From the NCBI GenBank assembly GCA_903926465.1, contig CAIYJE010000021.1, positions 1 to 64,000 on the forward strand: 64,000 nt of DNA, written 5' to 3'. The notes beneath the pieces were generated by a model, which did no database searches, was not told the origin of the DNA, and saw nothing but the letters and a program-made list of their open reading frames with translations. Positions 48,817-53,543 of the stretch are shown here, one piece after another (the stretch's first letter is position 1; each line of letters opens with the position of its first letter). The stretch comes from an uncultured Planctomycetales bacterium. GTDB taxonomy: Bacteria; Planctomycetota; Planctomycetia; Isosphaerales; Isosphaeraceae. The translations under genes and the position numbers were made by a program.

Positions 48817-49367
48817 CCTGAAATGATCCTTGGTGATACAAGAGAACCCCGAAAGCGATGATCCGGGAATTCTGGCCAACCTGATCGCTCGACACACTAT
48901 TGAAGCCGAATGTCTGCCTGAAACGAAAGGGGGCGGGCTCATCAGGCTCCTTCCCAAGGCTCCCCTCCCCGCCAAGTGACGGAGCATTTTCCGTGATGGA
49001 ATCCTCTGATTCCTGGTGAGCTTTCCAGGAAATCCAAGCCAGATCGGCCGTCCCTCCCGCCCAGAGTTGCCACCGGGGCAGCCTGGGAGAATCTCACCGA
49101 AACCTGCGGCCGCCAGCCGCTGGAAGAGCCCACGAGAACCCTGCGTCATCGCTCTTTGAGTGCCAGAATTCCCACCAGCCGCCTGACCGCCCAAACCTGG
49201 GTCAACCGATTTTCTTGACGGTTACGGGAACTGCCGATAGGATAAGTCGGTCATTTTTGCCTGAAAAGGCATGAAATTGACGGGTCGTGATCAAGACAGG
49301 ATGGATTCCTGTTTTTGGATTTCAAGTTTTATTGCCGCGTGGTGCTCACCCGCGGAGCTCGGATGTT
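48817..49367. other. Divergent regulatory gap between VOC-like gene and murB
   Basis: About 550 bases with no supported gene. It holds the murB promoter (49215-49243) and, just after the expected transcription start, a GNRA-tetraloop hairpin TGCCT-GAAA-AGGCA at 49258-49271. No clear promoter for the VOC-like gene was found on the minus strand. Confidence 0.5.
49215..49243 (+). promoter_or_regulatory. Promoter of the murB-ftsQ-secA region
   Basis: TTGACG (49215-49220), 17-base spacer, TAGGAT (49238-49243). A transcript would begin near 49250 and carry the small hairpin at 49258-49271 in its leader. Confidence 0.55.
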
Positions 49368-50249
49368 ATGCACCCACTCGACGAGTTTCGCGGGTTCGTC
49401 AAGGCGGATGAACCACTCGCACCATTGACCTGGTTTCGCCTGGGCGGGGTCGCCGATTTCCTGGCCAGGCCACAGACGATCGATGAACTTCGATCGCTGG
49501 TTCTTTGCTGCCACAAGGAAGCGATTCCGTTTCGAGTTCTCAGCAGCGGTTCCAATGTTCTTGTCGGTGATAAGGGCGTTCGAGGCGTTGTGATCCAGCT
49601 TGAAAGTCCAGCGTTCTCCGATGTTCGCATCGACGGCCGGACTGTTGAGGCGGGAGCCGCAGTACCACTGAACGCCCTCATCTCCCAGACGGCCCGGGCC
49701 GGGTTGGCAGGGCTGGAACTTCTGACCGGCATTCCTGGAAGCGTGGGTGGTGCCCTCAGAGGCAATGCCGGCAGCCGACAGACAGCGCTCGGACAATTTG
49801 TCCAGTCGGTCACGGTTCTGGATCGCCATGGCGATACGGTTACCCGTGAGCGAGATGACCTCAGCTTCTCTTACCGCTGGTCCAACCTGGATGACCCGAT
49901 CATCCTCGCCGCGCGGTTTTCTCTGGAACTTGAAGATCCAGAGGCCGTGGTCCGCCGCATGCGCAGAATCTGGATCGTCAAGAAAGAAAACCAGCCCTAC
50001 GGGCATCAACTTTCCGGGCTCATTTTCAAAGACCCGGCAACCGATATTGCTGCTCGAATGTTGATCGATCAGTCAGGCCTGAAAGGGGCGCGGGTTGGGG
50101 GCGCCGAGGTTTCCGACCGTGATTCCAACTACATCGTGGCTCAGTCTGGGGCTTCTGCCGCCGATGTTATGGGTCTGATCGATTTGATCCGGGAAACCGT
50201 GAAAACTCAGACCGGACATAATCTGGAGTTACAGATCCAGATCTGGTAA
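49368..50249 (+). CDS. murB: MurB homologue (UDP-N-acetylenolpyruvoylglucosamine reductase-like), catalytic residues substituted
   Basis: 293 residues from ATG 49368 (MHPLDEFRG); a longer GTG start at 49287 is possible. MurB reduces the enolpyruvyl group in peptidoglycan precursor synthesis. FAD-binding blocks are clear: WFRLGGVADFLARP, SSGSNVLVGDKGVRG, TGIPGSVGGALRGNAGS. The substrate arginine is present (R170, SYRWS). However, the proton-donating Ser of the GSxFKNP motif is Leu (L218 in SGLIFKDP), and the C-terminal Glu of LExEV is Gln (Q289 in LELQIQIW). The usual HANFIV is DSNYIV. So it is a MurB fold whose activity is doubtful. It is followed by an FtsQ-like gene as in dcw clusters. Confidence 0.85.
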   Translation: MHPLDEFRGFVKADEPLAPLTWFRLGGVADFLARPQTIDELRSLVLCCHKEAIPFRVLSSGSNVLVGDKGVRGVVIQLESPAFSDVRIDGRTVEAGAAVPLNALISQTARAGLAGLELLTGIPGSVGGALRGNAGSRQTALGQFVQSVTVLDRHGDTVTRERDDLSFSYRWSNLDDPIILAARFSLELEDPEAVVRRMRRIWIVKKENQPYGHQLSGLIFKDPATDIAARMLIDQSGLKGARVGGAEVSDRDSNYIVAQSGASAADVMGLIDLIRETVKTQTGHNLELQIQIW

Positions 50250-50419: not shown

Positions 50420-51475
50420 GTGAACCAGGGACGTGATCCGTCGATCTTCTTGACATCGGAGAAGGCCCCGCCCTCGGCGACAAGTCCGACGGAGGTTGGC
50501 CACTCCTCTTGGATTGGAAGATCTCGGTCCGGCGACCAAACCCGAATTGACCGGGGGAATTCAGGGCGTCGGGGCTGGCTGTTCGCCCTGGGGATTTGCC
50601 TCTCATTAGCGGCCGTGGTTGCGGCCACTGGATGGCTAGGCACAGCCAGAAAGTGGCTAGCAGACCGCCCAGACTACCAGATTCCGTGGAACCAGATTCA
50701 GCTCGAACCGGCCCCCCCCGCCTACATTCGTGCTGGGACAACAACGGTACTGGCCGGGGTCAAGAAACGACTGGGTGGCCCCGATTCGATCTCTACTCTG
50801 GCCCAAGACTGGGCCGAACTGGCCCGAGCCCTCTCGCTGGGCTCTCCCTGGGTTGAGGAAGTTCACAAAATTGCCGTAAGCGGATATCCAAACAAGCTCG
50901 TGATCAACCTGTCTTACAGACACCCGATTGCGATGCTGAATGCCGGCGGAAATGCCGGGTCCAAAATCATTCTGGACAAGAACGGGGTCGTTCTTCCCTC
51001 CGACGATATCGACCTCAAAGAGGCAGGCAGCCTGATCCGAATTGACGGCCTAAGCGGCGCACTGGAGCCACGCCCAGGGCTGGCGCTCACGACTGCGGGA
51101 AGCCAGGACGAAACAAAACTTCAGGCGGCCATCGGGCTCGCCAATTTTGTCAGGGCTCAAACGGAAGCCCAGAGTCCGAATTCTGCCAAGCCCTTACTCC
51201 AGGCCGTGAATCTTCGGTACGGAGACCACCATCTGTTTGCGCAAACACGGGATGGTCTCTGGGTGCTCTGGGGCGATGCCCCAGAACAAGAGCCGGCCGG
51301 ACAGCTTAGAGCACAGCAGAAGTGGAGCTTTCTCAAAGACTGGCTCGCCAACCATGCTCCGGTAGCCGACCGGCCCGGTAGCTATCTGGTTTTCACCCCC
51401 ACGGGGGCAACGCTTCAGGCTGCAAAATCTCCAGGAACCGGCCGGAAGGCCGACGCTTCCGACTCTGGTGGATAA
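50420..51475 (+). CDS. FtsQ/DivIB-like single-pass membrane protein
   Basis: 351 residues. Basic, Ser/Pro-rich cytoplasmic N-terminus (1-50), one membrane helix (about 53-73), then an extracytoplasmic part. That part looks like the POTRA and beta domains of FtsQ: SPWVEEVHKIAVSGYPNKLV, then INLSYRHPIAMLN and IILDKNGVVLPSDDID, matching the family pattern of P-W-V, an ERRPVA-like strand and an L-x-D-x-x-G-V-V-(F/L) strand. GTG start at 50420 with GGAGG ten bases upstream. Position after murB is the usual place of ftsQ. Sequence similarity is weak, so the call rests on layout, motif pattern and context. Confidence 0.65.
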   Translation: MNQGRDPSIFLTSEKAPPSATSPTEVGHSSWIGRSRSGDQTRIDRGNSGRRGWLFALGICLSLAAVVAATGWLGTARKWLADRPDYQIPWNQIQLEPAPPAYIRAGTTTVLAGVKKRLGGPDSISTLAQDWAELARALSLGSPWVEEVHKIAVSGYPNKLVINLSYRHPIAMLNAGGNAGSKIILDKNGVVLPSDDIDLKEAGSLIRIDGLSGALEPRPGLALTTAGSQDETKLQAAIGLANFVRAQTEAQSPNSAKPLLQAVNLRYGDHHLFAQTRDGLWVLWGDAPEQEPAGQLRAQQKWSFLKDWLANHAPVADRPGSYLVFTPTGATLQAAKSPGTGRKADASDSGG

Positions 51476-51590: not shown

Positions 51591-53543
51591 ATGGCAAATT
51601 CCGTTGGATCTCAGTGGTTTCACCAGGTTGCCCAGATTGCAGGGACCTCTCACACTGGCCGGCTCTCCCGGTTCTCATTGCTGGCCCAGAAGGTGAATGC
51701 CCTGGAGCCGGAACTTGAAGCGCTTTCCGACCACGACCTCAAACAGCGCAGCTATGCCATGCGCATGCGGGGCCGCCAGGGTGAACCCCTGAGTGAGCTG
51801 CTGGTTGAGGCATTTGCCCTGGTCCGCGAGTCTGCTAAACGAACCGTCAAGCAAAGACACTATGACGTTCAGTTGATTGGTGGCGCGGCCATCTTTTACC
51901 GGTCGATCGCGGAAATGGAAACCGGTGAAGGAAAAACGCTGGTGGCAACCTTGCCAACCTATCTGAATGCTCTGGCCGGCAAAGGGGTTCACGTGGTCAC
52001 CGTGAATGACTACCTGGCCAAGCGAGACGCAGACTGGATGGGCGAAATTTACCGGTTCCTGGGAATGACGGTTGGCTGCATCCAAACCGGGCAGCCCGAC
52101 GAGTCTCGTCGGGCTGCCTACGCCGCCGACATCACCTACGGCACATCCAAGGAACTGGGTTTTGACTATCTTCGCGACGAACTCAAACGCTATCAGCTTG
52201 GCGGAGACGGCAAACGCAAAACCTACGAGCAGGTGTACCTGGGACAGGGCGAGAGCAGCGTCTCCGCCATGCCCGTTCAACGCGGCCACCACTACTGTGT
52301 GGTCGACGAGGCCGACAGCATCCTGATCGACGAGGCCAGAACCCCCTTGATCATCGGGGCAAACAACCAGCCCAGCCCCGAGGAGGCCATGGCCTACTAC
52401 GGGGCCGATGAGGTTGCAGCCACACTGGTCCGAGGCAAAGAGTTCAAGTACGACCCGGCCGAAAAGAAAGCCGAACTCAATGCCGCAGGACGCCGAAAAG
52501 TACAGATGAAAGCCGGCCAGTCGGCCTTCACCTGCCTGACGGTTGACCAGCTTTATGAATACGTTGAACGCGCCCTGCGCGCACAAATTGCGTACCTGAA
52601 AGATCGAGAATACGCGATTCAAGATGGCGAAATTGTGATTGTCGATGAATTCACGGGCCGTCTGATGCCCGGCCGCCAATGGCAAGATGGTCTCCACCAG
52701 GCTATCCAGGCCAAGGAACGGCTTGAGATTACCCTGGAGTCAATCACGGCCGCCCGGATCACGGTCCAAGACTTCTTCAAGCTCTATAAGAAGCTGGCCG
52801 GTATGACCGGCACGGCGTGGAGCGATCGCAAGGAAATGTCCAGGATCTACAAGGTCCAGGTGTTTCCGGTCCCAACGAATCGGAAGAGCTGCCGGGTTTG
52901 GGAGCAAGACCGCATCTTCTCCAACGAGGCCGAAAAATTCAGAGCGGTTGCAGACCGGATCATTGAACTGAACAAGCAAGAGGTACCTGTACTGGTTGGT
53001 ACCCGCTCCATTGAGAAGTCGGAAAAGCTAAGTGCGTTGCTGCAGGAAGCAGGAATTCCCCACCAGATTTTGAACGCCAAGCACCACGCCATTGAAGCCG
53101 AGATTGTGGCCCAAGCCGGTCAGTCTTGCAGGGTGACCGTGGCCACCAACATGGCTGGACGTGGTACCGACATCAAAATTGCACCAGACATGGCGGCCAA
53201 AGGCGGCCTGCACGTCATTGGTACCGAACGCCATGAAAGCCTGCGAATTGACCGACAGCTCGTGGGCCGATCGGCTCGCCAGGGAGACCCTGGGCACGCC
53301 CAGTTCTTTGTTTCTTGCGACGACGACATTCTGGAGGCGTACGGTGAGAAGTGGGCCAACCGGCTCCGTGCACGCCACAAGAACCGGGGCGAACTCACCA
53401 ATGCAGCCTGGCGCAGGCTCTTCCTGAAGTCCCAGCAAAAGAAAGAACATCAGCATCGCAAGGACCGCCGATTACTGATGCACTATGAAAAACAACGGGC
53501 CGAGATGCGCAAGAATATGGGGCTGAACCCAGTACTCGGCTGA
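51591..53543 (+). CDS. secA: Short SecA-type translocase ATPase
   Basis: 650 residues against 800-900 for typical SecA. Walker A METGEGKT (K115), VNDYLAKRDADWM, DEAD box VVDEADSILIDEARTPLI, preprotein-binding insert, VDEFTGRLMPGRQWQDGLHQ, MTGTAWSD, and the NBD2 motifs TNMAGRGTDIKI and GRSARQGDPG are all present. The chain ends soon after NBD2 (KKEHQHRKDRRLLMHYEKQR and a few residues), so most of the helical scaffold and wing domains, the C-terminal linker and the zinc tail are missing. The main SecA is therefore probably elsewhere and this is an accessory or divergent form. ATG with GGAG upstream; 115 bases after the FtsQ-like gene. Confidence 0.9.
   Translation: MANSVGSQWFHQVAQIAGTSHTGRLSRFSLLAQKVNALEPELEALSDHDLKQRSYAMRMRGRQGEPLSELLVEAFALVRESAKRTVKQRHYDVQLIGGAAIFYRSIAEMETGEGKTLVATLPTYLNALAGKGVHVVTVNDYLAKRDADWMGEIYRFLGMTVGCIQTGQPDESRRAAYAADITYGTSKELGFDYLRDELKRYQLGGDGKRKTYEQVYLGQGESSVSAMPVQRGHHYCVVDEADSILIDEARTPLIIGANNQPSPEEAMAYYGADEVAATLVRGKEFKYDPAEKKAELNAAGRRKVQMKAGQSAFTCLTVDQLYEYVERALRAQIAYLKDREYAIQDGEIVIVDEFTGRLMPGRQWQDGLHQAIQAKERLEITLESITAARITVQDFFKLYKKLAGMTGTAWSDRKEMSRIYKVQVFPVPTNRKSCRVWEQDRIFSNEAEKFRAVADRIIELNKQEVPVLVGTRSIEKSEKLSALLQEAGIPHQILNAKHHAIEAEIVAQAGQSCRVTVATNMAGRGTDIKIAPDMAAKGGLHVIGTERHESLRIDRQLVGRSARQGDPGHAQFFVSCDDDILEAYGEKWANRLRARHKNRGELTNAAWRRLFLKSQQKKEHQHRKDRRLLMHYEKQRAEMRKNMGLNPVLG

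Follow-up and report, generated by a model that had tools for sequence, protein, structure and literature searches.

MurB in Bacteria with and without a Peptidoglycan Pathway

MurB, the UDP-N-acetylmuramate dehydrogenase, is known in several types, represented by the enzymes of E. coli (type I), S. aureus (type IIa) and T. caldophilus (type IIb). According to the available sections of PMC3689657, the proton donor is a Ser in type IIa and a Cys in type IIb. The protein described here is encoded in a stretch of 64,000 nucleotides (the window) from an uncultured planctomycete of the family Isosphaeraceae. It resembles the known types in its whole-length fold, its scores above the HMM cut-offs, and its retention of Arg159, the Lys217 column and most FAD-loop residues (E. 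coli numbering). In contrast to them, it has both the donor Ser/Cys and the active-site Glu replaced and Asn233 changed to Asp, and its genome has no detected MurA, MurD or transpeptidase. A conserved fold with altered catalytic residues is a likeness to pseudoenzymes as a general class.

Retention of murB in planctomycetes has already been published. The accessible text of PMC12283558 describes the loss of murA, murC, murD, murF, murG, murJ and ftsW from Pirellulales, Isosphaerales and Gemmatales, while across the whole PVC superphylum the only members of the dcw cluster retained by all are murB, mraW and ftsK. The MurBs treated below are, by order, the same set, kept despite those losses. 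As far as the accessible text goes, that work covers presence and essentiality, and not the catalytic residues of MurB, a pairing with ftsQ or a planctomycete MurC without a P-loop. The losses conflict with Jeske et al. 2015 (PMC4432640, in part), where MurNAc and DAP were reported in Gemmata obscuriglobus and Rhodopirellula baltica, members of the same orders, and peptidoglycan genes in all species analysed. Other species add variety. For example, the portions available report that P. limnophila, which is walled, can do without murB (PMC10632474), list murB, murE and mraY for Paludisphaera borealis where FtsZ is absent (PMC5352709), and give Kolteria a murA together with murB1 and murB2 (PMC12288469).

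Coupling of MurC and MurB is known from the fusion protein of Verrucomicrobium spinosum (PMC4803751, in part), in which MurC was active in vitro while MurB activity was not demonstrated in vitro; the fusion complements E. coli murB and murC mutants (PMC5539593, in part). Unlike the case presented here, that protein is essential and belongs to a walled bacterium (PMC12283558, in part). A literature search, with subscription journals mostly outside its scope, found no report on the catalytic residues of these planctomycete MurBs or on a change in their active site. A search for MurB together with pseudoenzymes returned work on insect symbionts and no planctomycete case.

The Orphan MurB Homologue

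The gene occupies 49368..50249 on the + strand, starts with ATG and encodes 293 amino acids. A longer frame from a GTG at 49287 exists, and the alignment of relatives begins at 49368. The protein passes the NCBIfam models NF010480 (275.8 bits, cut-off 259) and TIGR00179 (167.5 bits, cut-off 144.5), and both MurB_C and FAD_binding_4 of Pfam are above their cut-offs. It is 61-68% identical to 11 named relatives from Singulisphaera, Tautonia, Paludisphaera and Isosphaeraceae MAGs.

A structure model built from 12 close sequences has a mean pLDDT of 77, with values below 50 at residues 207-217 and 290-293, which adjoin both of the changed sites discussed below. Solved MurB structures rank first among its PDB fold matches. 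The top match is 3tx1 (Z 24.5 over 278 residues, 3.8 Å), other whole-length matches are 1hsk (Z 24.4) and 2gqt (Z 20.8), and the MurB structures extend down to 1uxy (Z 18.8); the next fold follows only at Z 14.0. By family and by its three-domain fold the protein is thus a MurB.

Active-Site Residues

Residues were read against E. coli K-12 MurB translated from NC_000913. The original prediction had aligned Ser229 with Leu218 and Glu325 with Gln289 by motif, and this assignment is borne out, with the same letters in two alignments. The codon at 50019..50021 (+) specifies Leu218 at the proton-donor position, where most relatives carry Cys, and that at 50232..50234 (+) specifies Gln289 at the Glu325 position. 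The second alignment, to a profile of walled rows plus E. coli, agreed with the first at both the Ser and the Glu position in 200 of 200 MurB rows; its profile was derived from the first alignment, and it is not fully independent of it. The active-site residues described in the literature are equated here, by our own reading, with Ser229, Glu325 and Asn233 of E. coli.

Other parts of the site are conserved. Arg170 (49875..49877, +) aligns with Arg159, as had been claimed. The FAD site, also claimed to be intact, is largely but not wholly so: the GXG-S-N loop reads S-S-G-S-N, with Ser59 in place of the first Gly (G47 in E. coli) and the remainder kept. A noted change of HANFIV to DSNYIV was seen again on comparison with several relatives, whose DRHANFIV is DRDSNYIV in this protein.

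Two candidates for a replacement donor lie nearby. Ser216, suggested earlier as a substitute, is indeed Ser in all seven full-length Isosphaeraceae rows without the donor Cys, but Ser is also found there in 20 of the 30 rows with Cys, and it is therefore not a specific replacement, though it might still substitute. The second candidate, Asp222 (50031..50033, +), stands at the position of Asn233 and was put aside, since the equivalent Asn-243 of P. aeruginosa MurB (equated with Asn233 by us) contacts the phosphoribose of NADP (PMC3689657, sections available). This Asp more likely reflects altered ligand binding. Asn233 is changed to Asp in 30 of 71 donor-less MurB rows of genomes lacking MurA, against 4 of 39 that keep the donor (Fisher p 0.0005, a value that ignores relatedness and is confounded by kinship).

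These residues bear on one alternative, that the protein is still a normal MurB in which Ser216, another residue or water acts as the donor, Gln serves for Glu, and a MurA analogue supplies the substrate. The retained fold, the conserved Arg159 and a mostly unchanged FAD loop are compatible with it, as is Ser216 in the donor-less rows, and the occurrence of Ser216 beside Cys counts against it. Its likelihood depends further on the pathway and on the relatives.

The Peptidoglycan Pathway in the Same Genome

A search with PF02873, proposed as a check with the original prediction, found a single MurB in this draft genome (207 contigs, 99.66% complete), and a second copy was accordingly rejected. 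MurA was not found, the sole EPSP-family protein being AroA, so that no supply of substrate by MurA is evident. MurC, MurD and MurE were likewise not found among the Mur_ligase_M proteins, which are a MurF-like protein, a cyanophycin synthetase and FolC. No PBP transpeptidase domain was found in the genome, while the walled relative G058 has two. Because MurA, MurC, MurD, MurE and a transpeptidase are all absent from what was detected, this MurB is left with no known substrate supply and no known pathway. The earlier suggestion of an inactive or re-purposed MurB gains from these results.

The MurF-like ligase (440 amino acids, contig 70, 1363-2685) scores 159 bits, where the cut-off is 288.6; it is a possible second repurposed Mur enzyme. 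The cyanophycin synthetase (contig 119, 910-3579) is above its own cut-off.

In a draft of 207 contigs a true MurA or a second, canonical MurB might simply be missing from the assembly. The completeness of the genome argues against such a gap, as do two single-contig genomes of the class (G011 and G047) that also lack MurA, the 102 of 148 class genomes lacking both MurA and MurD (see below), and the published loss in three orders (PMC12283558, in part). Contradicted by the single-contig relatives, this explanation is rejected and is the most improbable of those considered.

Distribution across the Planctomycetia

The class was sampled with 148 genomes, drawn evenly, at least 90% complete and including the genome under study. 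MurA is present in 46 of these at E ≤ 1e-60 (43 above the curated cut-off) and MurD in exactly the same 46, which leaves 102 genomes without both. MurB_C was detected in 147; in the remaining genome, G018, MurB is cut by a contig end, so that MurB occurs in 148 of 148. The genome under study and similar members of the class have neither MurA nor MurD, and UDP-GlcNAc-enolpyruvate therefore has no known maker or use in them. In a separate set of the same genome and 58 relatives, some of them incomplete, MurA scores of at least 385 bits were seen in nine genomes (eight above the curated cut-off). The same nine have the highest MurC scores, eight above cut-off, and the remaining weak matches to the MurA model were taken for AroA.

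Active-site letters were read in 200 MurB rows, 159 from Planctomycetia and 41 of about 135 from other classes of the phylum (the 20 best-scoring and 21 picked across families). Each gene was represented by one locus only, and the set leaves out L032-L046 (named copies, partial copies and two Deltaproteobacteria), L195 (identical with L228), L230, and the MurB of G270, which lies in two pieces on separate contigs. The tree, the conservation comparison and dN/dS leave out six partial rows; four partial rows were unreadable in the residue count. The family of the window's genome, f1, was taken as Isosphaeraceae because L033, the Singulisphaera acidiphila match, has the coordinates of G026, an f1 member.

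Genomes with MurA keep the pair of Ser/Cys and Glu in all 45 cases read (of 46). Among the 98 readable MurBs from the 102 genomes lacking MurA, four keep both residues. In the other 94 one or both are lost: Ser/Cys alone survives in 28 and Glu alone in 33, and a further 33 have neither. The four that keep the pair (G214, G250, G272 and G296) also lack MurD and a transpeptidase; loss of the pair is thus not automatic, and the role that retains MurB does not require it. In the other classes the pair is kept in 41 of 41 MurBs read, including four from genomes without a detected MurA. Comparison with other planctomycete MurBs, recommended at the outset, thus places this protein in a pattern, seen over the whole class, in which the residues change along with loss of the pathway.

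The replacements differ with family. Isosphaeraceae mostly combine Cys with Gln (27 of 41 rows), Gln at the Glu325 position being the rule, and Leu with Gln is found in four rows, that of the window among them. Family f3 has mostly Arg and Glu, f4 has Tyr and Gln, and f5 has Tyr and Gln, Ile and Gly, and others. Some lineages also show changes in the FAD loop; for example, the column of E. coli Ser50 is Phe in 34% of f3.

A tree made with the trait columns removed gave at least 26 letter changes in the Ser229 column and at least 21 in the Glu325 column; MurA presence changed 6 times and the residue pair 7 times. Phylogenetic contrasts between MurA and the pair number four on supported branches, with none in the opposite direction (sign test median p 0.25). 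With so few independent contrasts, the association of MurA with the pair rests on the pattern and not on the sign test.

These distributions weigh on the possibility of a still normal MurB. It can draw on the donor Cys kept by most Isosphaeraceae and on the MurNAc and DAP reported from Gemmata and Rhodopirellula (PMC4432640, in part), and another route to muramic acid is conceivable. However, the chemistry seems to need the pair, since none of the 45 walled genomes read, and none of the 41 MurBs read from other classes, has lost it. Different families replace different residues, and the other enzymes of the pathway were not found. Normal MurB activity is judged unlikely.

Two genomes carry more than one MurB. 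G039 has MurA and two MurBs, a canonical copy with Cys and Glu near MurA and a copy with Tyr and Gln elsewhere (L056 and L067), and offers a natural test case for the function of the paralogue. The walled G050 has, besides its usual copy, a second and distant MurB (L069, G050:C12:338227-339075) that adjoins MurA. This MurB is 34% identical to that of the window and has Ser and Glu; it was perhaps acquired.

Selection and Conservation

The orphan murB is under purifying selection. In comparisons of genes whose proteins are at least 85% identical, dN/dS was 0.014-0.145 in f1 (14 listed of 17 pairs), 0.031-0.132 in f3 (10 pairs) and 0.031-0.085 in f5 (13 computable of 14). Medians over all computable pairs, blurred by saturation, were 0.21 in f1, 0.26 in f2, 0.32 in f3 and 0.08 in f5. 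MurB is also better conserved than the product of the gene that follows it, with identities to the window's proteins of 61-68% for MurB and 24-39% for the neighbour.

Neutral decay, in which MurB would be a remnant disappearing after loss of the wall, has in its favour that the Ser229 and Glu325 columns drift to many letters. Retention in all 148 genomes, low dN/dS in close pairs and the better conservation of MurB than of its neighbour run against it. Retention and dN/dS contradict this explanation, which is rejected as highly improbable.

In Isosphaeraceae, 15 positions are nearly fixed for residues that are rare in walled relatives, and the window's protein has 14 of them. Three lie in the loop preceding the donor position, K205-Q214 (KKENQPYGHQ; 49980..50009, +): E207 and Y211 occur in 100% of 37 Isosphaeraceae rows and G212 in 95%. 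The newly fixed positions speak for a changed use of the site over mere erosion, with shared ancestry explaining part of the signal.

A changed use could mean the same flavoenzyme chemistry with a new substrate, the FAD/NADPH half-reaction being kept and some other small molecule or a protein being reduced. The newly fixed positions are consistent with this, and residues peculiar to single families, namely E207 and Y211 of Isosphaeraceae and the Arg that f3 has in place of the donor, fit substrates that differ between families. The greater frequency of Asp at the Asn233 position in donor-less rows agrees as well. However, the sites (Leu/Gln, Arg/Glu, Tyr/Gln, Ile/Gly) are so diverse that one shared substrate is difficult to envisage, and FAD-loop residues are altered in some lineages, as in the Ser50 column of f3. 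A new substrate is a doubtful explanation, although a better one than normal MurB activity.

Neighbouring Genes

Downstream of murB, at 50420..51475 (+), lies a gene for a protein of 351 amino acids described originally as FtsQ-like. Its model (m7446c8f3fda6, pLDDT 78) has FtsQ chains as its six top PDB matches (Z 10.2 to 8.2), a fold match that agrees with the description. The model predicts a long N-terminal helix at residues 51-81, followed by a POTRA-like and a beta domain. This would be the architecture of FtsQ (N-terminal membrane helix, POTRA and beta domain), with the helix read from the model. In sequence searches, none of the Pfam or NCBIfam families matched the protein at E 0.001, and a profile of the FtsQ alignment run against the PDB reached FtsQ only at E 0.42. 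POTRA_1 is above cut-off in two of five orthologues (L033 and L035) and just under it in L034, and is absent from L037, L042 and the window's protein. Like FtsQ/DivIB by its predicted fold, the protein differs in its setting, in a genome where no transpeptidase was detected and a family in which Paludisphaera borealis has no FtsZ (PMC5352709, in part).

The pairing recurs in lineages without MurA. An FtsQ-like frame directly follows murB in 85 of 112 such rows (103 have a frame there); the other 27 have no FtsQ-like frame in that place, nine of them no frame at all. In walled Planctomycetia an FtsQ-like frame follows murB in one of 47 rows (38 with a frame there), and a MurC-like frame lies upstream of murB in 44 of 47. 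The proximity of FtsQ may be inherited dcw gene order. The MurB text available in PMC10269673 holds nothing on MurB binding division proteins.

A MurC-like frame overlaps murB in 10 of 41 Isosphaeraceae rows, a lower bound, since the search for upstream frames covered just those loci that extended far enough. The P-loop GxxGK[ST] is present in none of these ten (L005, L007, L009, L010, L011, L013, L014, L015, L023 and L072), compared with 22 of 22 MurC-like frames from walled relatives that are 450 amino acids or longer. The P-loop-less MurC appears to be another Mur enzyme, repurposed or dead, that shares the gene row with murB. Outside f1, one MurC-like frame was seen in Planctomycetia lacking MurA, in G278 (f68); it has the P-loop, is not among the ten, and by eye appears MurE/MurF-like.

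Further downstream of the FtsQ-like gene, at 51591-53543 (+), the window encodes a SecA homologue of only 650 amino acids. At 734 bits it falls short of the NCBIfam SecA cut-offs (814 bits) and is perhaps an accessory copy.

A Possible Second Role for MurB

The observation on the active site is confirmed and proves to be part of a pattern that spans the class, and the re-purposing reading is supported by the association of residue change with pathway loss, the FtsQ fold match and the recurrence of the pairing. The MurB of the window has probably been repurposed, with its original reaction lost. Going by its residues, UDP-N-acetylmuramate dehydrogenase function would be gone from the orphan protein, and FAD would still be bound.

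The MurB fold would then have outlived its pathway, kept for a second role that may be older than wall loss or may have arisen at it. As a cytoplasmic FAD-binding protein, MurB could be a scaffold or an NADPH/redox-sensing protein. Gene order points to FtsQ, a membrane protein often encoded just downstream, as a possible partner in division or envelope assembly that would proceed without FtsZ and peptidoglycan. Such a role as FtsQ partner, scaffold or redox sensor is put forward tentatively. We think that among the detailed proposals an FtsQ partner is the most likely, a flavoenzyme with a new substrate the next, and a hidden normal MurB less so.

A broader form of the repurposed-MurB reading is offered with more reserve than the role for MurB itself. 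In Planctomycetia without peptidoglycan, enzymes that once made wall precursors may now serve, without catalysis, in the machinery of division or of the envelope. MurB would work there with FtsQ, joined in some species by a MurC that lacks the P-loop, and it would be for this role and not for catalysis that murB is kept everywhere sampled, though MurA and MurD are lost from two thirds of the genomes.

The protein is filed as a MurB homologue and not as a working UDP-N-acetylmuramate dehydrogenase, because the two defining residues and a substrate supply were looked for and not found. Family models still give it the name of the enzyme, though residues and pathway are gone. The presence of murB must not count as evidence for peptidoglycan. 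For the division of FtsZ-less planctomycetes without peptidoglycan genes, the orphan MurB is a testable pointer to the machinery.
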